Positions 271 to 52,592 of a stretch of DNA of 64,000 nt are shown one piece after another. The stretch lies in NCBI RefSeq assembly GCF_010093535.1, contig NW_022985172.1, positions 121,083 through 185,082 of the forward strand, in the 5' to 3' direction. Position numbers and translations under genes: made by a program. Every line of letters starts with the position of its first letter. Position 1 is the first letter of the stretch. Below the pieces are notes generated by a model. That model saw nothing but the letters and a program-made list of their open reading frames with translations. It was not told the origin of the DNA and searched no databases. The DNA comes from Lindgomyces ingoldianus (taxonomy: Eukaryota > Ascomycota > Dothideomycetes > Pleosporales > Lindgomycetaceae).

Positions 271-3200
271 GACAGTGTAATTACTACACTTAAAAAACTA
301 TTTAAAAAATTAAACTGCATAAAAATAAATACTTTAATTACTAACAGCACTTTTAAAGTTATAGCATATAACTTAATAAGGTATAAAGGTTAGATTTTTA
401 ACTTTTACTTTATATAAGAAGTAAAAGGTAAAATAACCTAACTATATAAAACATTCTGCCTAGTATTTGCTAGCTACTTAGATAAAAAAAAGAAAAAAAT
501 CCTTACTTAGTTACTAACTATTTAGAAGATAAGCTAGAGACTACTTCTAGCTATAAAAGTAAGCTTAAGAGCTATATATAAAATATATTTTAAACTATGT
601 AATATTACATAAGTATACATTTAATTAATAAATAAGCTTATGCGCACGCTGTATATAAAGCTACTAAAGAAGATACACTAAAGCTTTCTACTAAATATAA
701 TACTCTAGGTTGTACAACTCTTGTATAATGCTGCTAAATTAGGACTGTATTAGTTTAAGACATACTATAACTACTATAAAAAAAAGCTACACATGCATAT
801 CTTTTTATATAACCCCTACTTTTTAATTACTAATAAAGAAAAGCACATTTTTAGTATTACTAGCTTATAAATAGATAATACTTTAAGCATAATAACAAAA
901 AATTGTGCGCAAAAAGAAGAAAAAAAACTATAAAAAGTAAAGTTCTATATAAAAGGTAAGACTATTTTAGTAAAAAAGCAGCTTATTAAGTTTAATAGTA
1001 AAAGGATTAAACTTACACATAACATAGTAGTTTTTACTTAAAAAAGATAAGTAAGCTACCTTTATATAATTAACCTAAAAGATAAAAATGCTGCACAATA
1101 ATATGTTAAGTAATGTGTAAAAGAGGCATACATTACATCTATGTGTTAACTAGAGGCAGCATTTAACCTATTTATTACTATATAAACTATAAACTTTTTA
1201 TATAATAACATTAACATACTTAACACATAAATCTAATAGTAGATATGTAAGGCCGAGATGGTGCTTACGTGCGACGGGTATATATACTATTCTGTACGTA
1301 ATAATTAATGTTAGTTAATTATTTGCACCTTTTTAGTTGTATTAGCGTAGTAGTATAGAGCTCTGTTCTTACATAATAATTAACTAACAATAAGGACAGT
1401 CGCGCGTTTAACCTACACCTTAGACAGCTTTGCTAGTTTTTAGACTAAAACATAAGGCGGCCTCTTCTAGCGCCACGTTGTAGCTGCTAGGAGGTCTAGT
1501 GTGTATAGCTTAGCTGGCGTGGCCACTAAGCGTTGCGTTGCGTTTATCCCGCGCCTCTAGGCCGCAGGTGGTCAGCCTCTGGCCAGTAACCAAGACATGC
1601 GCATAGGCGCCTCTGAGCTGCGGGTAGGTTATGTGACGCCTGGGACATGCGTCTGCTAAGAAGGGGGATAATGTAAGGCCAGAATAGCGCTTACGTGTAA
1701 GGCTGAGATGGTGCTTACGTGCGACAGGTATATATACTATTCTGTACGCAATAATTAACGTTAGTTAATTATTCGCACCTTTTTAGTTGTATTAGCGTAG
1801 TGGTACAGAGCTCTGTCCTTACAAGATAGACAATAGTAAGTGCAGTCTTACTTTTCTACTATTATAGCTTAATTATGCAAAGCTGTTTATCTTTATAAAT
1901 AGATTATTTACTAATAATAAAGACCTTAGCTTATAGCTAGAATTTTTAATTATATTAAGTAATAAAGACTATATAGAGTAAAGCAACTACCTTAAAATAC
2001 TAGGTAATATTATACACTAGAATTCTACTAAGTGTAAAAGAGTAACTAAAAGTGTTCTTACTAGTAAACTGTATAGAATAGTTAAAAGGTTTAAAAATAT
2101 AATTACCTTTAGTATAACTCTATAGTAAATTATATAAACACTTAAACTGCTACTAATCCTAGTAGTAATCTGCACAGATTTAAGGTCTTTATATAACTGC
2201 CTTATTAAGCTAGGCACTACTAGTAAAAAGTAACTTATAATTAACATTATATTACTTTATAAATTATATAAGAAAAGAGAAATTACTAAAATAAAGTAAA
2301 TTAATAGTAAAAACAACTTAGTAAATGCATGTATAAAGAAAACACTAAATTAGGCTTTTTAATTATTAGTCTTAACTAACTGCCTCTCTGTCTAGATAGA
2401 AGCATCTGTAGACTAGCTAGATCTTATGCGCAAAGATGCTCTAAACTAACTAGACTAATAACACCTTTATATAAGGCCTATCTTTTTTTTATTTTTTTAT
2501 TATACACACTTATTTTTCTTAGTATAAGATTAGAAAAAAAGGATATATAAAAAAAACAGTCTATTTATCTAGTACACAGGAAAAGAAAAGCTACTAGCCC
2601 CCCTCCCCCCCCTCTAGAACACACCACCCCTTACGTGTAGTAGTTATAATGCAGACCACAGCTCTGCTATACGCACAAGGCGCAGGCATTAGCCTAGAAG
2701 TTAGCTAGCACATAACACTTAATAAAAAAAAAGGCACTAGTAGTGCTACTGTAATAATAAGCACATAGAGTTACTAAGACCTAACTATAACTCTAGACTA
2801 GGACTGCACAGAAGTACCCCTTATAACACATAACCTTTGCTGCCTACAGCTGCAGATTAGTGCTAGTAAGTAAGACAACATTAATATTATAAAATAGTAA
2901 AGCTGCTATATGCTACTTCTTAGCCTATTTATAATTAGCATTTTATATAAAGAGGAAGCAGAAGAGCTAAAAGATCTATATATTTATACTAAAACACTAA
3001 ATAAACTGCTAATTAGCAGCAGAACTAGTTAGAAGGGTAACATAGATGCGCCCTAGGCTGCTAGACTGCATAAGGATGCTAAAGACGCCCGCACTAACAG
3101 CGCTAGAGGTAGAGGAGGAAGGCTAGAGAGACATCTCTCTCTCTCTCTGTGTGTGTATGTGTGTGTGTGTGTGTGTGTGTGCAGGCAGGAGTATCTGTCA

Positions 3201-3908: not shown

Positions 3909-5871
3909 AAAGTCTTTATTATTAGTAAATAATCTATTTGTAAAAATAAACAGCTTTGCACTATTAAGCTATAATAGTAGAAAGGTAAGACTACGCTTAC
4001 TATTATCTATCTGCTATTAGATTTATGTGTTAAGTGTGTTAATATTATTATATAAAAAGTTTATAGTTTATGCAGCAATAGATAGGTTAATTGCTGCCTC
4101 TAGTTAACACATAGATGTAATGTATGCCCCTCTTACACATTACTTAACATATTATTATGCAGCATTGTTGTCCTCTAGGTTAATTATATAAAGGTAGCTT
4201 CCTTATTTTTTTTAAGTAAAGACTACTATATTATGTGTAAGTTTAATCCTTTTACTGTTAAACTTAATAGGCTACTTTTTTGCTAAAATAGTTTTACTTT
4301 TTATGTAAAACTTTACCTTCTACAGTTTCTTCTCTTCTCTTTATATAAAATTTTTTATTATAATGCTTAAAGTGTTGTCTATCTATAAGCTAGTACTACT
4401 AAAAGTGTGCTTTTCTTTATTAGTAATTAAAAAGTAGAGGTTATATAAAAAGATGTGCATGCGCAGCTTTTTTTTATAGTAGTTATAGTATATCTTAAAC
4501 TAATACAGTCTTAATTTAGCAGCTTTATATAAGAGTTGTACAACCTAGAGTATTATATTTAGTAGAAAGCTCTAGCGCATCTCTTTTAGTAGCTTTGTGT
4601 ATAGTGTGCGCATAAGCTTATCTATTAATTAGATATATGCTTATGTAATATTATGTAGTTTAAAATGCATTCTATATATAGCTCTTAGGCTTACTTTTAT
4701 AGCTAAAAGTAGTCTTTAGCTTATCCTCTAAATAGTTAGTAACTAGGTAAGAATTTCTTTTTTTTTTATCTAAGTAGCTAGCAAACACTAGGCAGGATTT
4801 TTTATATAGTTAAGTTATTTTGCCTTTTACTTTTTATATAAAGTAAAAGTTAAAAATCTAACTTTTATGCCTTATTAAGTTATATACTATAACTTTAAAA
4901 GTGCTGTTAGTAATTAAAGTGTTTATCTTTATACAGTTTAATTTCTTAAATAGTTTTTTAGGTGTAGTAATTACACTATCTGTACAGAGCTTAATAGACA
5001 AGGCCTAATTATCTTTTTTCTTCTAGGTTAGAAATACCTAGTCTAGACTTTATGTAGGTTTCCTTTACTTTTTACTTCTTTTAGTATCTATATCTTCTTT
5101 TTACACTAGTGCGGCATTGCTATTCTAAGGGGCTTAGTCTGTAGTAGGCTCTAGTTCTGCCTCTGTAATATTCTTATAAGGCTGTTCTCTTTTCCTCTTC
5201 TTTAAGAGATCTTTTTATATAAGGATTAGTTTATCTAGGTTATCTATTACAGGTAAGTTATCTTTCTTTTTTTCTTTATAGTATAGTTTAATCTGCGTAT
5301 ATTAAAGCTTTAGTAAGCTATTTTTTTTAATAATAATATTTCTTTTTTAATGCTCTTAATCTTGTATAGGCTAGTCTAGCCTTTTTTCTCCCTCTATGCT
5401 ATAATCTCTAAGCTAAGAGGGAAGTTAAGAACTTTATATATTATAAAGCTATTATAGGTGTTAATTATATAATTAATGTTTACTTTTACATAGTCTTTTT
5501 AAAGTATTTTTATTACCTTTTATATAGCGCTTGCTTATATAATAATGTCTAGTAATAGTAAAAAGTTTACGTTAATTCTTAGGTATGCTTTAAAGACTAG
5601 CAGCGTAGGTACTAGACTGTGCAGGCTAGCTATGTTATTTAGAGCCTTAACTGCTATCTACAAGGTAGCCTTATTATCTGTATAGTTACCTAGCTTAGTC
5701 TTTAGAATGTTAAACACTTGTTAAAAAAGTGTGTGTGCGTACTTAACCTTTCTAACTACCTAATATGCTTCTATAGGCATCTGCCTATATATAGCTCCTA
5801 TAATTTTTACATAAGCTTAAAAATCCTCTAAAGCAAAGTCTGTACCAGGGTTATGCATAATATAGTCTAGA
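3909..5871 (-). mobile_element. Ty1/copia element 3, distal segment (integrase end to RT region)
   Basis: Read on the minus strand, this continues exactly where element 3's right-hand segment (28,213-40,509) stops; the break is the CTAGA duplicated when element 2 inserted. It covers the end of the integrase region (a block like KALNNIASLHSLVPTLLVF, near 5,600-5,700), the linker and the RT region. It matters as the uninterrupted reference: near 5,245-5,260 it runs straight through the site where element 2 has the Helitron. It is cut at 3,909 by element 1; the rest of element 3 lies left of the window. Confidence 0.8.
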
Positions 5872-5934
5872 TGTCTGTACGCAGCAGCAGCGTCACGGTC
5901 TGGATACAAGCGATCGCGCACGAGCAGGGCCACG

Positions 5935-8900
5935 TGTCACGGTATCCTCCCCAGATCCCAGACATAACTGTATTAGACGCGTACTAGAGTATTATTAGTA
6001 CACGTCTAACACAAACACAACACAACACAGATATAAACTTAAGCATAAACTGCTTTAACACTAACTAAACCTAGAATAGGCTTAATTTATACCTAAAGCG
6101 CTTAGACTTCTAAGCTAAGTATTTAATTACTAATTTCTTTTTAAACCTTTTTATTTCTTATATAATGTCTTATACTTACTATAATACTTTATGTAGTAAT
6201 TAAACTAGACCTTTATAAAGCTCTATAACCTTACTTATGCATAATTATAATATTACATTATGTTAAAACTTTAGCTAAGAATAGCCTTTAAATCTAATTT
6301 AATAAGCTTAGTACTTACATAACTTTAAGCTATTAAAGTAAGCTAAAAAGCTTTTTAAAAAGTGCTTACTTTATAAAAAAGCTGCTATGTTATAAGCTTT
6401 AAAGCTTTTTAAAAGAACTTTAAAAAATAGCTTTACATTATTAAGTAGTCTATTTCTGCCTTAACTTTTATTATAGTAGTAGGAACTAAAAACTTACTAG
6501 CCTTAAAGCTTACTTAAAAGTCTAGAGATAGCTTAACTTTTTTTTACTTAACACTACTTATAACCTATAACTTTTTTAACTTAGTAATAAAATCTAACTA
6601 ACTTTTTAATCTCTTACTATTTAATAAAAAATAAAAAAACCTACTTTTCTTTCTATATAAGCTTTAATATAAACTTAAAAGAAATATAGACTAATTTCTC
6701 TTTAAACACTTTTAGTTACTATATGCCTACTTTTAACTTAACTATAATATAATAGCCTTAATTAACTTACTAATAAATAAAGATATTATTAACTTAAATT
6801 AATTTATAGTGTTTTTATAAGTAACTTATAAAAACTTAAATAAAAAGTTAATAGCCTTAAGTTACCTAAACACTTTATAATAATAAAAAAAAAGCTTTAC
6901 TTTACACTTTACTAAGTTTTACTAACTTACATCTAATATAGGCCTAAATAAGATAAGTTTAATTATAGCTTTATATAACTTCCTCTTAACTAAACTATAA
7001 CACACTATAGTAGAAGAACCTCTCTTAAATAACTTTAATATATATGCAAACTTAATTACTACCTATAATAATAACATAAGGTTTCTTCCTATATAAGCTT
7101 TAATACACCCCTAAACTAGCGCAGTTGTAAATAAGAACTTTAATATAATAAAAATTAATTTAAATTATGCTTTAGTTAGTTTTAAAAAGCGTAAAAATTA
7201 TAAAAAAAAAAGTTAATATTTTAAGTGTAGTAAGCATAGTTATATTTTTTAAAACTACTTTATTTACCTTTTTTAAGTCTATGCAAGTAGTGCTGCTAGT
7301 ACTTATTAAAAATTTTTACTATTTTAATCTTATTTTTATAAGAGCTTTAACTTATATTTAAGCTTTAATCTTTTTTACTACTTTTAATATAGCTGCAGCT
7401 ATAGTAGTAGAAGCCTGTAAAAAGGCTTGTTTTAAGGCTAAGTTACCTTTTAAAACTAATTTAACACTAAATTTTTACTAACTTATAAGCTAAGTCCTCT
7501 ACTAATAACTAAAAGTACTAAGTTAATATTCTTATATATTTATAATAAAAAACTATATTAGCTTTAATATAAGCTTTTATTAACTTAGAAGTAAATAGTA
7601 TAAGTTATATTAATAAAGAACTAGTGTGTAAACTAAATCTTTAATTAACACTACTTACTTAAATAATTTACCTAACTAGATTTAATAAAAAATAACTTAA
7701 AAAAAGTTTTATCTTTTATACTATAACTATTATAATTACTTACTAACACTATAAAGAGTAGATTAAACTTTATGTAATAAATATAAAATGTTATAACTTA
7801 ATTCTAAAATAACTATAGCTATATTAGCATAAAGTTACTTTTAATTACTAAAAGTAAGTTTTAAACTTTAACTTTTTTTAATGCTAAGATATATGCTTAT
7901 GCTTACACTTAAACAACACTTAAATAGCACTTAATATAAAAAGTTTTTAGACTTACTTTTTAATAACTTAAAAAAAAACTACTTAAGTAAAGCTAATAAG
8001 CTAGGCCTTTTACTAAGATAAGCTATATAAAATAATTTAATAACTACTTAAACTTAAAAAAAAAAGCTTTTAAAAAAACTTTACTTACTTAATTTAAACA
8101 TAAACTAGGACTTAAACAGCAGATAGACATCTACTATATAAAACTTACTTTATTTATAACTTTAGCTTAATAACTAGATTATAAAATCTACATAGTTATA
8201 ATTTCTAATATAGACTAAGCTTTAGCTCTTTAAAAATATACTAACTTAAAAATAATAGTTTTTTAAGACTACTATAACTTATTATATATCTTTTTTTAAG
8301 ATAAGTTTAATAAGCTTTTAATATAATATCTATATAATTACTAAATAACTTTTAAGCCTAGTAAACAACTTAGTTATAAGCTACTATATAAGATGTTACT
8401 AAATAAATTAAAAGTGCTCTAAAAATACTTTAATAAGAACTTAAAAAAAAGTTTATTTAAGCTAGCTTTTTACTAGTAGTGTTACTTATACTATTTATAA
8501 AGAAACCTAGAGGTAGGCTTTAATTTTATGTTAACTACTAAGGACTAAACACTATTACTATTAAAAACTAATACTTAATTTTTTTTTTATAAAAAACCTT
8601 AAGCTAACTAAGTAAAGTAAAGTATTTTATAAAGTTAGATATTATTACTGCCTTTAATAAGCTAAAAATAGTAAAGGGTAATAAGTAGCTAACAGCATTT
8701 TAGACCTAATATAAACTATTTAAGTACCTAGTAATGCCCTTTAGCTTAGCTAACACACTTAGTACTTTTTAATATTTTATAAATAACTTACTCTAACTCT
8801 ACCTAGACATGTTCTACACTATGTATATTAATAATATTCTAATTTATAGCAATAGCCTTTTAGAGTATAAACAGCATGTACGCCTAGTGCTAAAGGCTAT

Positions 8901-11624
8901 AGAAAAAGCAGGTTTATAACTTAACATAAATAAATATAAGTTCTACTAATTAAAGGTTATGTATTTAAGATATATAATTTTTATAAATAGCATTTAAATA
9001 GACCTTATTAAAGTTTAGACTATGCTAGATTAGTAATACTTAAAAAACATAAAGGATGTTTAAGCTTTTATAAGATTTACTAACTTTTACTAATAATTTA
9101 TTAATAACTTTTTGCAGTAAGTAAGCTTTATAATTACACTTACTAAAAAAAAAATTTAATTTAACTTTAACTTAAATTACTAATAGTTCTTTAACTAGCT
9201 AAAAAAAGCTTTTACTAAAGCTTTAATACTCTACTACTTTAACTTTAAACTACTAATACTTATAAAAGCTAATGCCTTAGACTATGTAGTAGCAGAAGTT
9301 CTTTCCTAGACTAAGCTAGATAGGACTATTAGGCCTATTATATACTTTTTAAAAAAAATAAGTCCTGTAGAAAGTAATTATAAGATCTATAATAAAAAAT
9401 TACTTACTATAGTATGCTACTTTAAATAATAGCAACCTAAACTAGAAGGTGTAGCGCATCTAATATAGGTCCTATTTAACTATAAGAACTTACAGTACTT
9501 TGCAACTATAAAATAACTTAGCTACTAATAAGCTTATTAGTTTAAATACTTATTTTATTTTAATTTTAAGATTACTTATTATTTTAGTTAAAATAAAAAG
9601 AAACTAAATACTTTTATAAAGTAATTCTAAAACATTTTTACTTAAAAAGAAGTGTAAAAGGCTTAACACTAAACTTTACTTTAACTTAAGCTATTTTTAA
9701 ACCTTAACTTAAATAAAATAAATTAGATAATTAATTAAATTATTACTAATAAGTATCTAAATAATAAATTTATTTAAAAAACTTTAGACCTACTTTAAAA
9801 CAGCGCTAGTTAGTTAAAAAAAGTAACACTAGCTAACTATAAAAACTAAAATAGCAAGCTATATTACTATAACTAACTAAGAATTCTTAATTTTAATAAA
9901 CTAAGAATTAAACTACTTTAAATTATACATAACTTACTTATTAGAGGACACTTAGGCAGAGGAAAGACTCTTAACCTACTACAGAGAGAGTACTACTAGC
10001 CCTACATGTTCTATACTGTACGCTAATACATATTATGTTGCTATACTTGCTGTAAAGTAAAGGCCTTTTAAAAAAAGTATAATAGCCTGCTTAAACTACT
10101 TCTAATCTCTAAATAAGCTTAAAAAGACATATTAATTAATTTTATTATAGACCTACTTTTATTTAAAGGGTATATAAATATTATAGTAGTTATTAATTAC
10201 TTAACTAAGTATTAACACTTAATACTATATTCCTTTATAACTGCCCCTAATATAGCCTAGTTATTCTACTAATATGTATAAGTTTACTATAGCTTACTTA
10301 ACATAATTATATTAGACAGAGGTACGTAGTTTGTCTTAGCCTTTTAAAATAAACTCTATAAATAGCTTTAAATTGTTCTTTATTTATCTATAGCTTTTTA
10401 CTTAAAAACTAATAGCTAGACTAAAAACATAAACACTATAATAAAATAAGTCTTATAAGTGTACATAAACTACTAGTAAAATAACTAGGTAAAATAGTTA
10501 GCTATAGTATAGTTTAAAGCTAATAATATAATATTTAAATTAACATAAGTATCTTTATTTTTAGTAAACTATAGATACTACCCCTAAATAAAATTTAAAC
10601 TACTTATAAATACTCTTTAACTAACTTATTAATTTATATAAGTAATAAATATAAATAAACTTATTAATAAATTTTAAAATATATTTAAATATGTTTATAA
10701 AAAGCTTACATAGGCTTTAGCTTTTTAATAAGAGTACATAAACTAATCTTAAACCTCTACCCTTATATATGCAGCTAGCAAGAAGGTCTAGCTAGACACT
10801 AGAATTATTTAAATAAACTAATAATTAAAAAAACTTAATTAGAAGAACCTTAGCCCCTTTATAGTAGCTTATATAGTTTTATTATACACTTACTAATTAA
10901 TTCTACCTAACAGCATAAAGATACACCCTGTGTTCTATGTATTATTACTGCGCTAAGTAGCCTTTAAATTTAACTATCTACTTAGATAGCTAAACTTACT
11001 ACCTAAACTTATTATTATAAACAACAAACTAGAATATATTATAGAAGACATTAAATAGATCTAGTTTAATAAAAAAAACATATTTATAAATACTTTATAA
11101 AATAGACTAGATATAACAAACTGTTATAAGAACCTGTAAAAGCTTTATAAGAGAACTCTATAGTAACTTAATTTTACGCCTAATACCTATCTAAACTTAA
11201 TTTTACGCCTAATACCTATCTAAACTAAACTTATACCATAATAAAGATAACCTAATGCTAGAACTACTAATGTAAAGGATTCTCTTTTTAATAAGAGGGG
11301 GGGTACTGTTACAGTATCCTCCCTAGATCCTAGACATAACTGTATTAGACACGTACTAGAGTATTATTAGTACACATCTAACATAAACATAACATAATAT
11401 AGATATAAACTTAAGTATAAACTGCCTTAACACTAACTAAACCTAGAATAGGCTTAATTTATACTTAAAGCGCTTAGACTTTTAAGCTAAGTATTTAATT
11501 ACTAATTTTCTTCTAAACCTTCTTATTCCTTACATAATGTCTTGTACTTACTATGATACCTCACGTAGTAATTAAACTAGACCTCTGTGAAGCTCTATAA
11601 CCTTACTCGTGCATAATTGTGACA
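5935..11624 (+). mobile_element. Ty3/gypsy LTR retrotransposon, copy A
   Basis: Two 318-bp LTRs (5,935-6,252 and 11,307-11,624, TGTCACGG...GTGACA) with TSD CCACG (5,930-5,934 and 11,625-11,629) sit inside the 5' LTR of element 2. A polypurine tract, AATAAGAGGGGGGGTAC, precedes the 3' LTR. The interior has gag with a zinc-knuckle relic, then pol in the gypsy order RT, RNase H, integrase. It is collinear with copy B (32,578-38,373). CpA sites are nearly all lost, so it is inert. Confidence 0.92.
8470..10760 (+). pseudogene. Gypsy pol remnant of copy A (RT, RNase H, integrase)
   Basis: One frame with many stops carries the conserved blocks. RT: YLVMPFSLANTLSTF at 8,725-8,769, then YINNILIYS at 8,824-8,850, where active enzymes have YIDD; both Asp codons have become AAT. 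Integrase: an HHCC-like block near 9,930-10,060, first Asp GAC at 10,150, second Asp in DRG at 10,315, and the third acidic position at 10,423 as AAA (Lys). The last two are 36 codons apart, as in D35E integrases. RT and integrase share a frame over 1.4 kb, so point mutation rather than indels destroyed it. Confidence 0.85.
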
Positions 11625-11846: not shown

Positions 11847-14800
11847 CTAATTAGTAGTTAATTTAATTAACTATAAATTAGCAAGAGTAATAATAAAGTA
11901 CTTATACTTTATAAGATACTTTATTTTATTACTTATTTTTTAAAAAAAGTAATAATAAAGCACTTACGCTTTATAAGGTACTTTATTTAGTTACCTATTT
12001 TTTAGAATAGCAGATTAATTTTTTACATTATACAGCAAGCTCTGCTACTGTATAAAGTAAAGAGGAGATAGTGTAAGACGCACACTAAAGCTACTAAAGC
12101 TGCATAACCTAGTAGCTAGACAATAGTAGATTAATCCTTTATATTATACAGCAAGCTCTGCTACTGTACAAAGTAAGAAGGAAATAGTGCAAGGCGCACA
12201 CTAAAGCTATTAAAGCTGCACAACCTAGCAGCTAGACAATAGCAGTACCTGCGTAATCTACTAGAAAAGTAATTAACTATACTATTATAATAAAATTCTA
12301 CTAGCAACTAATAACTTTATGCAATAATAGAAAAAATAAAGAATAATTTTTATTATATAAATAACTTATAAAGAACATAAAGATATTAGAGGCAACACTA
12401 TAAAATAAGACTAGCCTAGAGTACTAGAATAACAAGATTAACATGTTAGAAGCTTTAATAAGCTTATAAACTTAATTATACATAAGTTACATAATTACTA
12501 ATTTATATATAATAACTTAAAAGGGCGCTACTTTTCTAAGTTTATATATAAAGGATTTTAAAAAATAGACACTATAAGACTTCTTAGCACTTAGCTACAC
12601 ATTTAAAAGGGAGCTTATATAAGTGCTAAAGAATAAAAAAATTACACTATAGCTAAGCACTAAAAGTACTTAAGCCTAGAAGCTATATAATATAGTATAA
12701 AAAAAAGTAATTACACTAAAAAGCTTTATATATAACTTTTATTACTATATAAGGCTCTACATAGAAGCAGACTAAACATAATGCTGCTATTAACACTAAA
12801 TGTACTAGCATTACCTGCTTCTACACTTTAGCTAGTACTACACTAATTACTATATAAACAATACATGCTACCCTACCTAACGCCTGCTCTACACCCTTAA
12901 TTGTACACACCACTGCCTGCAGTAGTGTATGCACTACTAATACTACCTGCATAATTTATACTACATTATAACTTATATAAACTTCTACTTTAAAAAGAAA
13001 CTGCTAAAGAAAAACTTTTAGTAGATAAAATTATATAATTTTAAAAAGTATTAAAAAAAATAATAACTATATAAGTTAACTATATAGCATTTTTATAAAT
13101 AAAATAAAATTTTTTATTAATTTATGTTAATAGCTAGATATCTAAAAAACTTAGTACATAGACATCTTTCTAGATATCTTAAAAAGTTAGGTAAATATAT
13201 ACTATATATATAACATAGGCCTTAGACATAACTAGAAGTATTTATATAATACTTTAAGTAGTTACTTTAATACTAATGTAAACTATAGCTAGTACTAGAC
13301 AGACTAGATAATAATAACTTTTACATAATACTAATAAAAAAACTTTAATAAAACTTTATATAAAGTTTTTAAAATAATAATTAATAAGCTTATGCTTACA
13401 TAAAGAGCACTAAAAATAAATTTTTAGAAAGATGTTTTACTACACACTACTATTATATAAGCTTGTTAAGAATAACTAGAACTAGAACATGCTATGTTTA
13501 CTATTAAGCCTTTATATAAAGCTCTATTTAGTAACTTATAAGCATTACTCTAAGTTACTATAGACTAAAAAGTAAACTAATACTTTTAGAAACTACCTAA
13601 TGCATACTACATAGACTACTAATATAACTCTGCATAATAAAAGTCTACATAATAAGAAGAAAGCTTCTTTCTGTGTAGAAAAAAATAATGTAGAAGATTT
13701 TTATCTAGGTTTAGGCTATAATCTAGAGACAACTATACATAGATAAAAAAGTGCTTTGTCTGCTATAAGAAAGAATATTAGTTATTAAACTACTCTTATA
13801 ATAACTATACATAAGTAAAGAACTAGTATGTTACCTTATATAAAGATTTTTATACTAAAACTTTATTATATAAAGCTATTACCTTATACATCTAAAACTT
13901 TAAAAGTTACTTTAAAGAAAAGAATAATTTGCATAATGTAAAAAAAATAAAATAAAAAAGTAAAAATACTAAAAAAGCTGTTAACTACTTTACTTTTGCT
14001 ACCTATTTACACTATGCAACAGAAGAGGACATCTATAGCATTAAACCTAAAAAAATATGCTAAGTAGTTTATTCTTAATAACTAATACTATATAGTATAC
14101 TAAAGTAAACTATAAGACATAGGTGTAGTAAAGATCTTTACTATTAGTAAGTTCTAACTTAAAGTGTATATATAAAAAAACTTATGTATAGAAATTAATT
14201 AGACACTTAGCTAAACAAATATTAGCTTTAAAAGCTAGACACTAAAGGGATTAATTAGTACTATATAAATCTAAAACTTAATTAGTCTAGTTATATACTA
14301 TATTTTAAAGACTTTAATACTATTTCTGCTATTACTAGTAAATGCTAACTAACTTAGGGCATACTTTAATAATGTTTTAAATGTTATTATATATAAAGAT
14401 AAAACTACTATACTTATTATATAAAAATAAAGACACTTTTTTTAATATTAGTAAGAAAGAATTAATATTCTTCTTTACTATATTAGAACTTTACTGCTTT
14501 TACTACTAATTTAGACACCTCTGCATAGAGAAACTCTAGAAGATGCTAACTAGCGCTAGCTACAACATTAATGCTGTAGTGCTAGAAGAGATTAAGAAGT
14601 TCTGCTACCTCTACTAATTATATAACTAGGCCTTATAAAAATTTAAGTTTATAATTAAAAATAATACCTACTTTAACTATAAAGTTGTTATTAATGTTAT
14701 ATAAATTAATAATAAAAATGTTTTATATATTATTAATGTAGACATATTATTTTAGGCTGCTACATTCCTAAAATCTATGTCTACACAAGATACCTAGGAT

Positions 14801-24412: not shown

Positions 24413-27398
24413 AATAGATAACCTAGATAAACTAATCTCTATATAAAAAGATCTTTTAAAGAAAAAAAAGAAAAGACAGCCTTATAAAAATATTATAAAG
24501 GTAGAACTAGAGCCTACTATAGACTAAGCCCCTTAGGATAGCAATGCTGCACTAGTGCAAAAGGAAAATATAGATACTAGAAAAAGTAAAAAGTAAAGAA
24601 AACCTGTATAAAGTCTAGACTAGGTATTTCTAACCTAGAAGAAGAAGGATAATTAGGCTTTGTTTATTAAGCTTTATATAGACAGTGTATTTACTACACC
24701 TAAAAAACTATTTAAGAAATTAGACTATATAGAGATAGATACTCTAATTACTAATAGCACTTTTAAGGTTATAGTGTATAACTTAATAAGGCATAAAAGT
24801 TAGATTTTTAACTTTTACTTTATATAAAAAGTAAAAGGCAAAATAACTTAACTATATAAGAAATTCTACCTAGTGTTTACTAGCTACTTAGATAAAAAAA
24901 GAAATTCTTACTTAGTTACTAACTATCTAGAGGATAAGCTAAAGACTACTCTTAGCTATAAGAGCAAGCCTAAAAGCTATGTATAGAATGCATTTTAAAC
25001 TGTGTAATATTATATAAGTATATATTTAATTAATAAATAAGCTTATGCGCACGCTATACACAAAGCTACTAAAAGAGATGCACTAGAGCTTTCTACTAAA
25101 TATAATACTCTAGGTTGTACAACTCTTATATAGAGCTGCTAAATTAGGACTGTATTAGTTTAAGACATACTATAACTACTATAAAGAAAAGCTATGTATG
25201 CACATTTTTTTATACAACCTCTACTTTTTAATTATTAATAAAAAAAAGCACACCTTTAATATTACTAGCCTATAGATAGACAACACTTTAAGTATTATAA
25301 TAAAAAATTTTATGTAAAGAGAAAAAAAAAACTATAAAAAGTAAAGTTCTATATAAAAAGTAAAACTATTTTAGTAAAAAAGCAGCTTATTAAGTTTAAC
25401 AGTAAAAGAATTAAACTTACACATAATATAGTAGTTCTTACTTAGAAAAAATAAGTAAGCTACTTTTATATAATTAACCTAAAGGACAAGGATGCTGCAT
25501 AATAATATGTTAAGTAATATGCAAAAGAGGTATACATTACATTTATATAGTAACTAGAGGCGGCATTTAACCTATCTATTACTGCACAAACTATAGACCT
25601 TTTATATAATAACATTAACACACTTAACACATAAATCTAATAGTAGATAGATAATAGTAAGTGTAGTCTTACCTTTCTACTATTACAGCTTAATTATGCA
25701 AAGCTATTTATCTTTATAGATAGATTATTTACTAATAATAAGAACCTTAGCTTATAGCTAGAATTTTTAATTATATTAAGTAATAAGAACTGTATAAAGT
25801 AAAGTAACTACTTTAAAATATTAGGCAACATTATATACTAAAATTCTACTAGGTGTAAAAGAGTAACTAGGAGTGTCCTTACTAGTAAACTATATAAAAT
25901 AGTTAAAAGTTTAATAATGTAATTACCTTTAGTATAACTTTATAGTAAATTATATAAACACTTAAACTACTACTAATCCTAGTAGTAATCTGCATAAATT
26001 TAAGGTTTTTATATAATTGCCTTATTAAGCTAGGCACTACTAGTAAAAAGTAACTTATAATTAACATTATATTACTCTATAAATTATATAAGAAAAGGGA
26101 AATTACTAAGATAAAGTAGATTAATAGTAAAGACAACTTAGTAGATGTATGTATAAAGAAAATACTAAACTAAGCTCTTTAATTATTAGTTCTAACTAAC
26201 TGCCTCTTTATCTAGATAGAAGCATCTGTGGACTAGCTAGATTTTATGCGCAAAGATGCCTTAAACTAACTAGACTAATAACACCTTTATATAAGGCCTA
26301 TCTTTTTTATTTTTTTTATTATACACACTTATTTTTCTTATTATAAGATTAGAAGAGAAGAATATGTAAGAAAGATAGTCTATTTGTCTAGTATATAGGA
26401 AAAGAAAAAGCTACTACCCCTTACATATAGTAGTTACAATGCAGACTACAGCTCTGCTATACACACAAGGCGCAGGCATTAGCCTAGAAGTTAGCTAACA
26501 CATAACACTTAATAAAAGAAGAGGCACTAGTAGTGCTGCTGTAATAATAAGTATATAGAGATACTAAGACCTAACTATAACTTTAGACTAAAACTGCATA
26601 GAAGTACCTCTTATAACACACAACCTTTACTGCCTATAGCTGCAGATTAATGCTAGTAGGCAAGACAACATTAATATTATAAGACAGTAAAGCTGCTACA
26701 TGCTGCTTCTTAGCCTGTCTATAATTAGCATTTTATATAAGAAGAAAGTAGAAAAGCTAAAGAATCTGTATATTTATACTAAAATGCTAAATAAACTGCT
26801 AATTAGTAGCAGAACTAGTTAAAAGGGTGACGCAGATGCGCCTTAGGCCGCTAGACTGCACAAGGACGTTAAAGACGCCCGCACTAACAGCGCTAGAGGT
26901 AGAGGAGAAAGGCTAGAGAGACATCTTTCTGTATCTGTGTGTGTGTGTGTGCAGGCAGGAGTATCTGTTACTGTTAGCACTGTATAAAAAGAGAAAAAAG
27001 CTAGGAAATTATACAGTAGGGCTTAAAAAGTAAAGGATAAAGAAGAGAAGGTAAAGAAGAAGAGAAGACCTTATTATATACACCTCCCTACACACCTGCC
27101 TATACAAAGATCTTACACTATTCTAGCATAAAACCTTGCACAAAATAGCTTGTACACTACTAAATTACTTACAAAGCAAGCATATAAAGGCTAAACAATA
27201 ATAGCTTAAAACACTTTACACTATTTATAAAGCTATTTACATAGTGTAACTAGCTTATCTTAATGTATAGCATTACTAAGGCAAGTCTTAATAAATAAAG
27301 TAGAGTAAAGGCAGAACATAATTAAATAGACTTACACAGATAGAAGGGAGGTAACGCATATAAAAGGCAACTCTTTAGATAAAAAGAAAAGTTGCTAG
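24413..27398 (+). pseudogene. Copia element 2, RT and RNase H remnant
   Basis: This resumes element 2 after the Helitron. RT end: IDNTL block near 25,270-25,290 and KRIKLTHNIVVLT near 25,405-25,450. RNase H: KLFIFIDR (about 25,700) where the family has VFVDASF, then CKRVTRSVL (about 25,850-25,890), then LIKLGTTSKKQLIINI (about 26,020-26,070). This identifies the family as the fungal Ty1/copia type. It runs to a polypurine tract (AAAAAGAAAAGTTGCTAG) at 27,380-27,398. Confidence 0.85.
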
Positions 27399-32577: not shown

Positions 32578-35500
32578 TGTCACGGTATCCTTCCCGGATC
32601 CCAGACATAACTGTATTAGACGCGTACTAGAGTATTATTAGTGCACGTCTAACATAAACACAACACAACACAGACATAAACTTAAGCATAAACTGCCTTA
32701 ACACTAACTAAACCTAGAATAGGCTTAATTTATACTTAAAGCGCTTAGACTTTTAAGCTAAGTATTTAATTACTAATTTTTTTTTAAACTTTTTTATTTC
32801 TTACATAACATCTTATACCTACTATAATACCTTATGTAGTAATTAAACTAGACCTTTATAAAGCTCTATAACCTTACTTGTGCATAATTATAACATTATA
32901 TTGTGTTAAAACTTTAGCTAAGAATAGCTTTTAAATCTAATCTAATAAGCTTAGTACTTATATAACTCTAAGCTATTAAAGTAAGCTAAAAAGCTTTTTA
33001 AAAAGCGCTTACTTTATAAGAAAGCTACTATGTTATAAGCTTTAAAGCTTTTTAAAAAAACTTTAAAAAATAGCTTTATATTATTAAGTAGTCTATTTCT
33101 GCTTTAACTTTTATTATAGTAGTAGAAACTAAGAACTTACTAGCCTTAAAGCTTACTTAAAAGTCTAGAGATAGCTTAACTCTTTTCTGCTTAATACTGC
33201 CTATAACTTATAACTTTTTTAACTTAGTAATAAAATCTAACTAACTCCCTAATTCTTTGCTGTTTAATAAAAAATAGAAAGACTTACTTTCTTTTCTACA
33301 TAAGCTCTAATATAAACTTAAAAGAAATATAGACTAATTCCCTTCTAAACACTCTTAGTTACTATATACTTACTTTTAACTTAACTATAACATAACAGCC
33401 TTAATTAACTTACTAATAGATAAAAATATTATTAACTTAGATTAATTTATAGTGTTCTTATAAGTAACTTATAAAAACTTAAATAAAAAGTTAATAGCTC
33501 TAAGTTACCTAAACACCTTATAATAAAAAAAAAAAAGCTTTACTTTACACTTTACTAAGTTCTACTAACTTACATCTAATATAGGCCTAAATAAGATAGG
33601 TTTAATTATAGCCTTATATAACTCTCTCTTAACTAAACTGTAACACGCTATAGTAAAAGAACCCCTTCTAAACAACCTTAACACGTATGTAAACCTAATT
33701 GCTACCTATAATAATAACATAAGGTTCCTCCTTGTACAAGCCCTAATACACCCCTAAACTAGCGCAGTTATAAATAAGGACTCTAACATAATAAAAATTA
33801 ATTTAAATTATGCTTTAGTTAGTTCTAAAAAGTATAAAAATTATATAAAAAAAAGTTAATGCTTTAAGTGTAGTAAGCATAGTTATATTTTTTAAAACTA
33901 CTTTATTTTTTTTTTTTAAGTCTACGCAAGTAGCGCTGCTAGCACTTATTAAAGATTCTTACTATTTTAATTTTATTTTTATAAGAGCTTTAACTTATAT
34001 TTAAGCCCTAATCTTTTTTACTACTCTTAACATAGCCGCAGCTATAGCAGTAGAAGCCTGTAAAAAGGCTTGTCTTAGAGCTAAGTTGCCCTTTAGAACT
34101 AATTTAACACTAGATCTTTGCTAACTTATAGGCTAAATCTCTTACTAATAACTAAAAGTACTAAGTTAATATTTTTATATGTTTATAATAAAAAACTATA
34201 TTAGCCTTAATATAAGCTCTTATTAACTTAAAAGTAAACAGTATAAGTTATATTAATAAAAAACTAGCATGTAAACTAAATCTTTAATTAACACTACTTA
34301 CTTAAATAATTTACTTAACTAGATTTAATAAAAAATAACTTAAAAAAAGTTTTATCTTTTATACTATAACTATTATAATTACCTACTAACACTATAAAAA
34401 GTAGATTAAGCTCTATGTAATAAACACAGGACATTATAACCTAATTCTAGGATAACTATAGCTGTATTAGCATAAGGTTGCTTTTAATTACTAAAAGTAA
34501 GTTCTAAACTTTAACTTTTTTTAATGCTAAGACATATGCTTACACTTATACTTAAATAACACTTAAGTAGCACTTAATATAGAAGGTTTTTAAACCTACT
34601 TTTTATTAACTTAAAAAAGAACTACTTAAGTAAGGCTAATAAGCTAGGCCTTTTACTAAAATAGGCTATGTAAAATAATTTAATAACTACTTAATGTAAG
34701 GCTAAGATGGCGCTTACGTGCGACAGGTATATATACTATTCTGCACCTGAAAATCAACGTTGGTTGATTATTTGTACCTTTTTAGTTGTATTGGCGGAGT
34801 AGTGCAGAGCCCTGTCCTTACACTTAAACTTAAAAAAAAAAAGCCTTTAAAGAATTTTTACTTACTTAATTTAAACATAAACTAGGACTTAAACAGCAGA
34901 TAGACATCTGCTATATAAGACCTGCCTTATTTACAACTCTAGCTTAATAACTAAATTATAAAATCTACATAGTTATAATTTCTAATATAGACTAAGCTTT
35001 AGCTTTCTAAAAACACACTAACTTAAAAATAATAGTCTTTTAAGACTACTATAACTTATTATATGTTTTTTTTTAAGACAAGTCTAATAAGCTTTTAATA
35101 TAACATCTATATAATTACTAAATAACTTTTAATCTTAGTAAACAACCTAGTTATAAGCTACTATATAAAATGTTGCTAAACAAATTAAAAGTGCTTTAAA
35201 AATACTTTAATAAAAACTTAAAAAAAAAGTTTATTTAAGCTAGCTTCTTACTAGTAGTGTTACTTATACTATTTATAAAAAAACTTAAAAGTAAGCTTTA
35301 ATTTTACATTAACTACTAAAGACTAAACACTATTACTATTAAAAACTAATACTTAATTTCTTTTTTATAGAAAACTCTAAGCTAACTAAGTAAAGTAAAG
35401 TATTTTATAAAGTTAGATATTATTACTGCCTTTAATAAGCTAAAGATAGTAAAGGGTAATAAGTAGCTAACAGCGTTTTAGACCTAATATAGACTATTTA

Positions 35501-39723: not shown

Positions 39724-40230
39724 ATAAGATTTATTTTTTATTTTTTTTATTATTACATAAAGTTGTTAGTTACTAGTAGAATTTTATTCTAATAGTATAG
39801 TTAATTACTTTTTTAGTAAATTACGCAGGTACTGCTGTTGTCTAGCTGCTAGGTTGTGCAGCTTTAATAGCTTTAGTGTGCGCCTTACACTATCTTCTTT
39901 TTACTTTATACAGTAGCAGAGCTTACTATATAATGTAAAGAATTAATCTGCTATTATTTAGCTGCTAAGTTATATAGCTTTAATAGCTTTAGTATGTGTC
40001 TTATACTATCTCCTTCTTACTTTATACAGTAGTAGAGCTTACTATATAATGTAAAGAATTAATCTGCTATTCTAAGAAATAGGTAACTAAATAAAGTACT
40101 TTATAAGGCATAAGTGCTTTATTATTAGTTTTTTTAAAAAATAAGTAATAAAATAAAGTACTTTATAAAGCATAGGTACTTTATTATTACTTTTACTAAT
40201 TTATAGTTAATTAAATTAACTACTAATTAG

Positions 40231-40509: not shown

Positions 40510-43385
40510 TCTTTCTTAATTTAAAACAGGATGCTTTGTTTATGTACCTAGTTTTTATCTATTACTATAAAGGTGCATTTGCTGTTAATAAAGGCTAATT
40601 CTAATTATTCTTTAAATGTAAAGGTTATAGTTAGGCTTTATTCTATCCCTTATTCTACAGCAACTAGGGCTAATATGTTATAAAGTACTTTTTTATTTTT
40701 TAGTAGGTAAGGATTTATATCTTATAAATTATTAAATTTTTTTTTATATAGTTAGTGTTCCCTATTACAGCAGTTAGCTGCTTTACACTTATAATCTTTT
40801 ACTAGGTAATGTAATGTTAAGTAATCCTCTTTTTATGCAGCCTTTTATTAGAAGTAGTAGAATCTATAGTTACTCTTATTATTATAGTTAGGCTATTTTT
40901 TCTACTTATAAGGCAGAGCTATGTAGTAAATGTAGTAATTTATAGTTTTATAGGCTAAGGCTATTTCTTGCTATAAGCACTTATTATAGTTTCTTTTCTA
41001 TATAGGCTACTATCCTGCTTAGTGTTTATTATTCTAGTGTCTTATATAATACTATCACATACACTAGTACTAGGGGTATAGACAGTTGTTAGGTCTATGT
41101 AGAGTGTTAAAAAGACCTTTTTAAGTCTATTAGAGGTATTCTTATGTTTGTACTACTTATACAGGATGTCTCTTCTATTAGCAACTGTTAGTGCTATAGA
41201 AGGCGCTTCTATAGAGCATGTATTAACTGTAGTTTTGTTGCATAGCAAGGGCCTTTCTACTAATTACTAGGCCTAGAAGTAGTGTCTTTAGTTTTTAAAG
41301 GTCTAGTTTAGGGACTTTAAACCTAGCAGGTCTGCCTAGTCCTTCTAGTTTTTAATTATAAATCTTAGTAAAAAACTACTATTGTTTTTTTTATTTATAA
41401 TATTATACTTAACTTTAGCTATTTATTATATTATATTAAATATAGCATAATTATTGCTAATACTTTTTTAATAAAGTGTAACTACATAATTTATACAGTA
41501 GTTATGTTATTAACTACATTTCTAGCATAAGCATTTCTAGAGCCTTCTAGAGAGCTCTCTTACTAAAGTGATAGGGGTTTAGTTATAAAGAGGAAACTTT
41601 TTTTTTTAACATTTATAATGTATCTTTAGATCTAAGTCTTTTTTTTATATTTTTTAAAAATTATAAGGTCTTGTAACACTTAATTAAAGCTACTAAAGTC
41701 TTTAATAACTACTTTTTAATACACTTTAGAGTAGTTTCTTAAAGAATAGTTTTTTTTATATTACTAGTAAAGTCTGTTATTTAATCTTTTTAATATTCTT
41801 TTATTTATAAGGCTATATTTAGCAGTAATCGCTTTTATTATTGTAGTAGTATTTTTATTCTCTCTTTTCTAGAAGTTTAGGTAATTTTAGCAGAAATGTC
41901 CTACTTTTTTATAGTTTAGGTAGGCCTTGTCTTTTAGCTACTTTTATTACTTCTTAGTTAAAAGCAGCTTATTACATCTAAGAGCTTAGCTTTTCTTTAA
42001 AGAGGGGCTTTATATATATTTTATATAACTAAGGTTTATTAGTTTTTTATTATAGTAAAAGGCTTTTTTCTTTTTAAGAATAAACTTAAGTTTCTAGAGA
42101 GCTTCTTTACACTATTTTTCTTTTTTACATTCTTTATACTTATTGTTATAAAGTGTTACTTTTATAATAAAATTTTTAAGAGTAGTTAGTTTTTTATTAT
42201 ATGTAAATTTATTTTTTATTATGTCTTTTAATTTATTATAAAACATTTAGTAAAAAGCCTTCTAGTCTGTCTATCTGCAGATAGCTAGCTGCTCTCTAAA
42301 GTGTGCTGCGTAGTACTAGGCTGTTTTTTTCTCTTATTTTAGAGTGTCTAGCTTGTTAGCTATAATTTTTTATTTATTTATAGTTCTATAGATAGTTAAT
42401 AGAGCTTTTTTAAAAGCTTCTACACTACTAAATATTTCTTTAGTTTTAGGACTTAGTGTAGTGCTATTTACTTTAAAGTCTATTTAATTATCTACGTGTA
42501 GCTAGAACTAAATTATAGAGAGTTCTTCTAAATATAATTTTATCTAAGATATTATTTCTGCATTAGTTTAAAATACTCCTCTGTTGTATTACATGTAGAC
42601 GTAGCATTTAGTAAAAAAGAGGTAAAAGTCTTTAAGCAATTCTTTAAAAAGCTTTAAAAGGGCTAGTCTTAAAGTCTTTTTAGCTAAAATACTTACTTTC
42701 TTAGTTAAGATATTTTAGAGCTTAGTTAGCTTTACTTATAATGTGTGTATCTAGTTTATAGAGCTTATAGCTAATTAAAGATTTATAAGTATAAGTTAGT
42801 TATTAAATTTAGCTACTTTTTAGCATAGATTTTTTACTTTTTTATAAAGACTAATAAGTTTATTAATTTTATTACTAATTTACTAAAGTTTTTTAATGTT
42901 GTTTTAGATACTATTAATTTATTCTACTAAGACTTTTTTATTAGCTGTTAGAACTTTTTATAATTATAATAAAGCTACATAGGCTATGTTAGAATTAAGG
43001 TTATGTTAAGTAGTTATACTTTTTAAAAAGGGTTAGTGTTTAATGTTATAATTCTTACTTTAAAAAGCACTTAGGTTAATATTATTTCTAGTAAAGTAGG
43101 ATAAAGGGTAGAGGCTAACAGTAGGGTGTACAGTCTTTTATAGAGGCTATTAGGCTAATAGAGTTAGGTAGAGTGACTAGATTATAGTTTGTCCCTTATA
43201 GCAGTAGTATAGTAGCTAGGTTAAACAGTCCTGTTAGACAGAATTAGAGGTATATATAGTGTAAGATATATAAATAGTATTACAGCTCTTTAGAAAGCTA
43301 GAATGCTACTTAGTCTATATAAAAAATAAACTAAACATTAAACACACTTTTTAAAAGTTATTTAAAGTTAGAACTATATACATAT

Positions 43386-50584: not shown

Positions 50585-51934
50585 CATATGTAATAATGCT
50601 AAGAATAAGTTAAGTAAGTTTATGTAAGCTTGCTAAGCGCGACTTTATAAGCTCTCTTAGACTTATTCTATCCTCCTAGCTCGCCTTCCTATTAGATAAT
50701 GCATTCTTCTATAACTGCAGGCAGCTGTGCTGCCTCCGCATCTTCCGACTAGTCTGTAGACGAGCCCTGCCCCAACCTAGCTAGATTGTGGAGCACCTCG
50801 GGTGGAGTTACGTTGGTCCAACTATAGACTGTAACAATCTACACTATTTTTCTTTTTCATGTTTTTTATACCTATTATTATAAAGTGTTACTTTTATAAT
50901 AAAATTTTTAAAAGTAGTTAGTTTTTTATTATGTGTAAATTTATTCTTTATTATGTCTTTTAGACTGTTATAGAACATCCTGTAAAAAGCTTTCTAGTCT
51001 ATTTATCTACAAATTACTAACTGTTCTTTAAAGTGTGCTGCATAATGTTATGTAGTTTTTTTTTCTTATTATAGTGCGTCTAGTTTATTAGCTGCAATTT
51101 TTTATTTATCTATAGTTTTATATATAGCAGTTAGGGCTTCTTTAAAGGCATCTACACTACTAAATATTTCTTTAGTTTTAGAGGTTAGTAAGGTGCTATT
51201 TACTTTAAAGTCTATTTAATTATCTACGTGTAGTTAGAACTAAATTATAGAGGGTTCTTTTAAATGTAATCTTATTTATAATATTATTTCTATATTAGTC
51301 TAAAATGCTCCTCTGTTATATTACATGTAGAAGTAGCATTTAGTAAAAAAAAAGTTAAAAGTTCTTAGGTAATTCTCTAAAAAGCTTTAAAAAAGCTAGT
51401 CTTAAAGTCTTTTTAGCCTTAATACTTTCTTTTTTAGTTAATATATTTTAGAGTTTTACTAGATTAACTTACAGCGTGTAAATTTATAAAGTAGCTACTT
51501 TAAAAGTTATTAGCATAAGTTAGTTATTAAGTTAGATTATTTTCTAGTGTAGAAGTTTTACTTTTTTATAGAGACTAACTAGTTTACTAATCTTATTACT
51601 AATCTGCTAAAGTTTCTTAATGTTGTCTTAGATACTGTTAATCTGTTCTGCTAGGACTCTTTTATTAGCTGTTAGAACTTCTAATAATCCTAATAAAGCT
51701 GCATAAGCTATGTTAGAATTAAAGTTATATTAAAAAGTTATACTTTTTAGAAGTGCAGTGTTTAATGTTATAATCCTTACTTTGTAGAAGCACACAGGTT
51801 AATGTTGTCCCTAGGGTGTAGAGCAGAGGGCAAGGGGCTAACAGTAGGGTGTACAGTCCTACGTAATAGCTACTAGGCTAATAGAGTAGAGTAGAGTAAC
51901 TAGATTATAGTTTGTCCTTATAATAGTAGTATAG

Positions 51935-52061
51935 TGTAAGGACGGGGCTCCGCACCACTCCGCCAATACAACCAAAAGGTACGAATAATCAACCAACGTT
52001 GATTTTCGGGTGCAGAATAGTATATATACCTGTCGCACGTAAGCGCCATCTCGGCCTTACA
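51935..52061 (-). repeat. Solo LTR of the miniature LTR element, 127 bp
   Basis: This is the inverted copy of the 52,466 sequence, almost identical, with TSD TATAG (51,930-51,934; 52,062-52,066). The related D1 stretch near 43,205-43,230 lacks it. Confidence 0.88.
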
Positions 52062-52465
52062 TATAGAGGCTAGGTTAAGCAGTCCTATTAGATATAATTA
52101 GAGGTATATATGTTGCAAGATATATAAATAGTATTACAGCTCTTTAGAAAGCTAGAATGCTACGTAGTCTATATAAAAAATAAACTAAACTTTAAACACA
52201 CCTTCTAAAGGTGGTTTAAGGTTAGAACTATATACATGTCTAATAGCACTAAGAATAAGTTAGTGTAAGTTCTCTTAAGCTTCTATTACTAACCTTTAGT
52301 AAGCTTGTCTAAACTCGCGCTAACTCCTTAGCTTGTCCTTCTTACTAGACAATGCATTCTTCTGTAATCCTAGGCAGCTGTGCTGCCTCCACGTCTTCCA
52401 ATTGGTCTGTAAACGAGCTCTGTCCTAACCTGGCTAGATTGTGGAGCACTTCTGGTGGAGTTACG

Positions 52466-52592
52466 TGTAAGGCCGAGATGGCGCTTACGTGCGACAGGTA
52501 TATATACTATTCTGCACCCGAAAATCAACGTTGGTTGATTATTCGTACCTTTTGGTTGTATTGGCGGAGTGGTGCGGAGCCCCGTCCTTACA
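52466..52592 (+). repeat. Solo LTR of the miniature LTR element, 127 bp, best preserved
   Basis: TGTAAGGCCGAG...CCGTCCTTACA has TSD TTACG (52,461-52,465; 52,593-52,597). D1's end at about 50,805-50,820 has a single TTACG at the same place. It contains TATATATA and a hairpin, AATCAAC-GTTG-GTTGATT (52,523-52,540). Open frames across this area on both strands are fortuitous. Confidence 0.92.

Follow-up and report, generated by a model that had tools for sequence, protein, structure and literature searches.

The 64,000-nucleotide stretch of the Lindgomyces ingoldianus genome analysed here (the window) contains, at positions 1,246–1,823, a complete non-coding LTR element of 578 bp, with AGATA on both flanks (1,241–1,245 and 1,824–1,828) as established by direct reading and BLAST. 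Its 5' LTR is a short form of 128 bp (1,246–1,373, plus strand) with 93.75% BLAST identity to 1,696–1,823, and its 298-bp interior (1,374–1,671, plus strand), delimited by reading and BLAST and present at 61 of 66 junction loci, ends in the polypurine tract (PPT) AAGAAGGGGGATAA (1,658–1,671, plus strand), which recurs at the 145 interior/PPT/U3 junctions found genome-wide. Between the purine tract and the second 128-bp repeat lies a 24-bp unit (1,672–1,695, plus strand) that resembles the LTR start. From the BLAST match and comparison with the rest of the family, it is preferable to read the 3' LTR as a long form of 152 bp (1,672–1,823, plus strand) that includes the repeat at 1,696–1,823, and the 5' LTR as the short form. 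The earlier sequence-only reading of this DNA had described two 128-bp repeats, a 298-bp interior, and a total of 578 bp; each of these sizes holds, but the parts add up to 554 bp, leaving the 24 bp at 1,672–1,695 unaccounted for.

Three solo LTRs of the same kind were located by BLAST, each with its own exact 5-bp duplication: 34,695–34,822 (plus strand, CTTAA), 51,935–52,061 (minus strand, TATAG), and 52,466–52,592 (plus strand, TTACG). The two within 51,935–52,592 form an identical pair in opposite orientation, 404 bp apart, near the transition from an AT-rich stretch to the GC-rich end of the window. When the window was searched with the joined flanks of each insertion, paralogous empty sites were found at 25,451–25,844 (plus strand, 89.8% over 394 bp) and, as a second site, at 3,909–4,206 (minus strand, 91.6% over 298 bp) for the complete element, at 7,852–8,245 (plus strand, 91.4% over 395 bp) for the solo LTR at 34,695, at 43,012–43,383 (plus strand, 84.2% over 374 bp) for that at 51,935, and at 50,673–50,836 (plus strand, 84.3% over 166 bp) for that at 52,466. 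The complete element with its 5-bp target site duplication and the four empty sites, both proposed in the sequence-only reading, are thus borne out, with exact duplications in all four insertions and a paralogous match for every joined flank, and its further statements that the boundaries are exact, that the element has no coding capacity, and that reverse transcriptase and integrase must be borrowed are likewise supported. To call it one of the smallest such elements was too strong, as the account in PMC10886601 gives Helenus TRIMs (terminal-repeat retrotransposons in miniature), some of them fungal, as 311–1,263 bp and SMARTs as 292 bp.

Elsewhere in the window, tandem arrays with periods of 62 and 116 bp are paired at 11,861–12,245 and again, in the opposite order, at 39,832–40,194, and these pairs are probably two copies of a larger repeat. 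The two genes given here from the gene-rich end are 62,165–63,769 (minus strand), for an NRPS-like protein with phosphopantetheine-binding and condensation domains, and 58,291–60,120 (plus strand), for a protein with a PNPOx_N domain.

The family across the genome

A search of the assembly (68.4 Mb in 99 contigs) with the whole element gave 513 candidates, the best 40 of which were scored, and 41 of the 44 matches listed are full length with 93–100% identity. Pattern searches, for all of which the reversed-pattern control returned 0, detected 94 exact LTR/PBS junctions, 145 interior/PPT/3'-LTR junctions (≤3 mismatches), 181 PPT-U3 16-mers, and 537 copies of the LTR promoter motif. The presence of the same interior end at 145 junctions shows that the window copy is not a fragment of a larger element whose interior was deleted only here, and a rough comparison of the 145 3' junctions with the 537 promoter motifs indicates that solo LTRs probably number in the hundreds. 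From the fetched loci, 76 distinct LTR-interior-LTR copies of up to 605 bp were assembled (77 listed pairs minus a spurious one formed by two neighbouring elements); 67 of the 76 have exact 5-bp target duplications, and their LTRs measure 125–133 bp plus an optional 24 bp. The only stop-free frames of at least 60 aa in one such copy, L003, are of 62 and 83 aa. The element thus has several of the properties by which TRIMs are recognized: a length below 1 kb, terminal direct repeats of 100–250 bp, no coding capacity, a PPT adjoining the 3' LTR, and a 5-bp target duplication.

LTR length classes of 127, 128, and 129 bp coexist in the family, and 73 of the 76 copies have two LTRs of the same class, as expected if a single template gives rise to both. 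Comparison of the two LTRs in each of the 73 equal-length pairs gave 499 substitutions in total. Transitions make up 485 of these, and 433 transitions fall in a CpA/TpG or CpG context; this pattern, along with the AT-rich repeats, suggests that RIP acts on this genome. In 55 of 72 pairs (one pair fewer than in the substitution counts), the two LTRs are closer to each other than the copy is, at the median, to other LTRs; in just 15 of 72 does no LTR of another copy lie closer than the partner LTR, a result attributed to RIP blurring relationships. The LTR at 52,466 is identical to at least 12 other places (among the best 40 scored of 676 candidates), and the LTR pair is identical in 4 of 73 copies, indicating that the family moved recently; of these four identical pairs, two LTRs are also identical to the LTR of another copy.

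The 24-bp unit was followed in 71 non-tandem copies (the 76 minus one with unread bases and four from tandem loci), being absent from 31, present in both LTRs of 23, in the 3' LTR only of 13, the class to which the window copy belongs, and in the 5' LTR only of 4. The 3'-only excess (13 vs. 4) is affected by the choice of loci, as whole-element matches were picked with a short-long query, and in the subset of 62 copies with exact junctions, which leaves out 8 junction sites among the whole-element matches, 9 short-long copies stand against 4 of the reverse. We do not claim the combination of a short 5' and a long 3' LTR as proof of a choice of end at insertion, given this bias in locus choice, and a deletion between 24-bp repeats after insertion is a possible alternative source of short-long copies. 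Many copies carry the unit at both ends with the target duplication outside it, short and long left ends are both found with exact target duplications, and solo LTRs occur in both the short and the long form, some with a further unit.

Candidate self-priming signals and protein source

Immediately downstream of the 5' LTR, the PBS at 1,375–1,389 (plus strand) is, over 15 nt, the reverse complement of LTR positions 1,309–1,323 (plus strand), presumed to be the 5' end of the RNA (R) and the self-primer. None of 5,000 dinucleotide shuffles of the LTR reached this match. The presumed TATA box, TATATATA (1,279–1,286, plus strand), has its TATATA at LTR offset 33, and the putative R start at 1,309 lies 30 nt after the start of this motif. 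No interior window from nt 15 on matches R over 15 nt, either in L101, a less mutated copy used beside the window copy (0 of 266), or in the window copy itself (0 of 265). Of 88 copies, 75 pair R with the PBS at every one of the 14 positions if G-U pairs count, and 50 do so with Watson-Crick pairs only. A second duplex, between CYGTCCTT in U5 and AAGGACRG beside the PBS (CTGTTCTT at 1,363–1,370 and AAGGACAG at 1,392–1,399 in the window copy, both plus strand), is complete (8/8) in 58 of the 88, the corresponding rate being 3% for shuffles and 1.9% for other 8-mers of the LTR; the four loci with inverted U3 sequence described below are excluded from these counts. The minimum-energy fold of one copy combines a 15-bp R:PBS duplex with a 4-bp stem, UGUA:UACA; its advantage over shuffles is modest (z −1.83, with 6 of 200 equally good).

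The sequence following the 5' LTR had been suggested in the sequence-only reading to be a RIP-altered primer site of the TGG type. This is not supported by the less mutated copies, which carry CAACCAAC without TGG; they read TAATAATCAACCAAC at the primer site, complementary to the likely start of the element's own RNA. Covariation of C/T with G/A between R and PBS was also considered as a sign of selection and dropped, because RIP alters complementary motifs alike and so yields such covariation without selection. The bases just outside the primer covary loosely, CT occurring with AG in 15 copies, AA in 14, and GA in 6, and AC with AA in 33, GA in 3, and AG in 3 (inverted-U3 copies excluded from both sets).

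The LTRs, the PPT, the exact 5-bp duplications, the large family, and the 15 nt over which the PBS matches the presumed start of the RNA are properties of the DNA as read. Taken together, they make it very probable that the element is a TRIM whose reverse transcription is self-primed in the manner of Tf1. For such an element, transcription would start approximately 30 nt after TATATATA, and the first ~15 nt of the RNA would fold back onto the PBS. The RNase H of a borrowed reverse transcriptase would then free the primer, from which minus-strand DNA would begin, the PPT would prime the plus strand, and a borrowed integrase would insert the DNA with a 5-bp stagger.

A large family with a related LTR end, which the sequence-only reading had proposed to seek as the helper, does exist and shares the PPT-U3 end of the TRIM. 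Near TRIM copies there is a different LTR of 201 bp, here termed X, which starts TGTAAGGCCGGATG and ends CATCTTTACA, and which at one locus (L017) is preceded by AAGGGGGGATAA. Genome-wide, pattern searches with ≤3 mismatches (control 0) gave 71 PPT-X and 62 X-PBS junctions. For 17 of the 62 X 5' junctions a PPT junction follows 7,091–7,099 bp downstream on the same strand, with one more at 7,327, and at least 7 of the 62 have a PF00078 reverse transcriptase match 2,127–2,134 bp in, on the same strand, 5 of these 7 being among the 17; the comparison used 37 of the best 150 scored reverse transcriptase matches (1,171 candidates), mostly the best-scoring and those spanning nearly the whole domain. 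The spaced junctions and the PF00078 matches together define X as a family of ~7.5 kb with a reverse transcriptase, and the PF00078 match suggests that it is Ty3-like. All seven X reverse transcriptase matches carry stop codons, and none of the 7 PF00665 integrase matches in the genome lies in these seven copies. Where the interiors of both TRIM and X were read, no likeness was seen between them. Self-priming of X itself was considered and rejected, as its match of 7–8 nt at the right distance from TATA is equalled by 631 and 688 of 5,000 shuffles.

The most probable supplier of proteins to the TRIM would be a Ty3-like family that shares its PPT-U3 end, either X or a relative of X, and X is the best candidate. 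There is nevertheless a considerable chance, somewhat short of even, that a self-primed TRIM is served by an LTR family other than X, possibly one gone from this strain. This would fit the many stops in the X copies with a scored reverse transcriptase at a time when some TRIM LTR pairs are identical, the lack of significance of the X self-primer match, and the existence of reverse transcriptase loci without stops elsewhere in the genome, but TRIM (71) or X (24) accounts for 95 of the 100 PPT-U3 16-mer sites listed out of 181, with 5 belonging to neither, and 5-bp duplications are made by X, as seen by eye in solo copies, just as they are by the TRIM.

Two further observations concern other LTR elements. 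At four loci (L042, L061, L026, and L017), TRIM copies or solo LTRs are inserted into other LTR elements, as determined partly by eye, and the hosts include X elements and another TRIM LTR. At L065, a Ty3-like pol region at about 4,470–9,001 of the locus (minus strand) was recognized by eye together with another LTR (TGTGACAG...GTCACA) and the PPT AGAGGGGGGTAA, and the genome-wide scans place reverse transcriptase and integrase matches there, with stops.

Inverted-U3 copies and alternative readings

Of the 94 exact LTR/PBS junctions, 28 fall within matches of the whole-element search, and the other 66 were fetched and inspected. Beside the PBS, these 66 have the TRIM interior in 61 cases by BLAST and in one more by its first bases, after which the sequence is masked, and inverted U3 in 4; nothing else was found at this position in the 66, although truncation or partial masking affects some interiors farther from the PBS. 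In the four exceptions (L066, L075, L085, and L126) the sequence after the PBS is the reverse complement of U3, and all four join exactly at the PBS. In L126 an unusual shortening of U3 is found both in the inverted arm and in the copy's own LTR. L066 is flanked by GAGCC on either side, and its inverted arm belongs to a different subfamily than its LTR. A clean duplication is present in L066 only, L085 and L126 having none and the end of L075 being broken. Two pattern searches for inverted U3 (≤3 mismatches) gave six places, namely these four and two known by pattern alone.

The simplest account of these copies may be a snap-back of strong-stop DNA, since its PBS copy and R are complementary stretches of one strand, which makes priming on itself or on a sister strand possible. 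On rare occasions, the PBS copy at the 3' end of the plus-strand strong-stop DNA would anneal to R, either in its own plus strand or in a co-packaged one, and be extended backwards through U3 to its tip, and the resulting LTR-PBS-inverted U3 molecule would have U3 at both ends and hence be insertable. We consider the chances roughly balanced that self-priming has an error mode leaving such molecules, whose two U3 ends the integrase accepts, that their footprints mark self-primed elements and mixed arms reveal co-packaging, and that the short and long U3 starts represent two usable left ends. An origin of the LTR-PBS-inverted U3 copies by nested insertion or later rearrangement instead of reverse transcription is rather unlikely: the family does insert into its own LTRs (as at L061), and two of the four copies have no clean duplication, but the join is exactly at the PBS in four of four, the arm of L126 shares a private U3 shortening with the LTR of that copy, and a single duplication bounds L066 as one unit.

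These copies also bear on how the TRIM is primed. According to PMC6934838, the PBS of a typical TRIM is complementary to a tRNA, and the element might likewise be primed by a tRNA or tRNA fragment, with the R:PBS match an accident of AT-rich sequence. This seems improbable, as no TGG follows the LTR, the 15-nt match appears in 0 of 5,000 shuffles and lies at the expected spacing from TATA, a second duplex is present, and the inverted-U3 copies join at the PBS. It is less plausible still that the repeats are those of a DNA transposon or MITE with the 127-bp "solo LTR" as the mobile unit, an alternative for which the 7-bp inverted repeat formed by the LTR ends (TGTAAGG/CCTTACA) and the location of 26 of 30 fetched high-identity LTR loci outside a full copy, 18 of these 26 with a readable 5-bp duplication (three read by eye), might speak, but which is countered by the PBS and PPT conserved at the interior ends, by LTR pairs that match in length class within 73 of 76 copies and are in some cases identical, and by a PPT-U3 end common to a family with a reverse transcriptase.

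Relation to known systems and implications

TRIM and SMART elements are described as shorter than 1 kb, with two short LTRs, a PPT, no proteins, and mobilization in trans (PMC6934838, PMC10886601), and TRIMs are known in fungi (PMC4646964, PMC10886601). The element described here resembles them in all of these respects, movement in trans being presumed, and also in its solo LTRs and tandem arrays, but it differs in that its PBS is complementary to the presumed start of its own RNA and lacks TGG, while theirs, as described, is complementary to a tRNA. In Tf1 and its kin, the first bases of the RNA pair with the PBS, and further duplexes of LTR and PBS-adjacent sequence form a "pretzel" (PMC7175516, PMC10085805, PMC4600332). 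The complementarity of the presumed RNA 5' end, placed by its spacing from TATA, to the PBS is shared with Tf1/sushi elements; in these accounts, however, Tf1/sushi elements are autonomous, whereas the TRIM is gene-free, the match is 14–15 nt here and 11 in Tf1, and the two further duplexes of the Tf1 type compare with one 8-bp duplex here (58 of 88 copies) plus a 4-bp stem in one predicted fold.

Helenus, Ajax, and Cassandra are also small non-autonomous LTR elements, and Helenus occurs in fungi, with 5-bp duplications, but these elements are reported to hold tRNA or 5S rRNA sequence in the LTR (PMC10886601). No such sequence was found in the LTR here, with no Rfam match at E ≤ 1 in 1,200–1,900, and ARAGORN found no tRNA in the window. 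In Venturia inaequalis, TRIMs have been annotated in another ascomycete affected by RIP, in an account that, in excerpt, says nothing on priming, protein source, or by-products (PMC4646964). For bivalve TRIMs, which also lack a typical PBS, the authors mention self-primed elements, and the excerpted text proposes no clear mechanism and displays no R:PBS match (PMC6934838). TRIMs and self-priming are thus each known, and neither their combination in a self-primed TRIM nor inverted-U3 by-products were found in the open-licence PMC literature searched, in part at the level of titles and abstract openings.

The element would bring together, in one unit, the way of life of a TRIM and self-priming of the Tf1 type. 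If this is correct, about 550–600 bp without any gene are enough to hold the cis signals for self-priming, and the over one hundred copies in this genome are a natural mutation series. The short and long U3 starts, each inserted with exact duplications, would likewise mean that two left ends are usable. Because another family shares the PPT-U3 end, it becomes testable which element supplies the proteins, and the inverted-U3 copies may provide a signature by which self-priming could be sought in any assembly.
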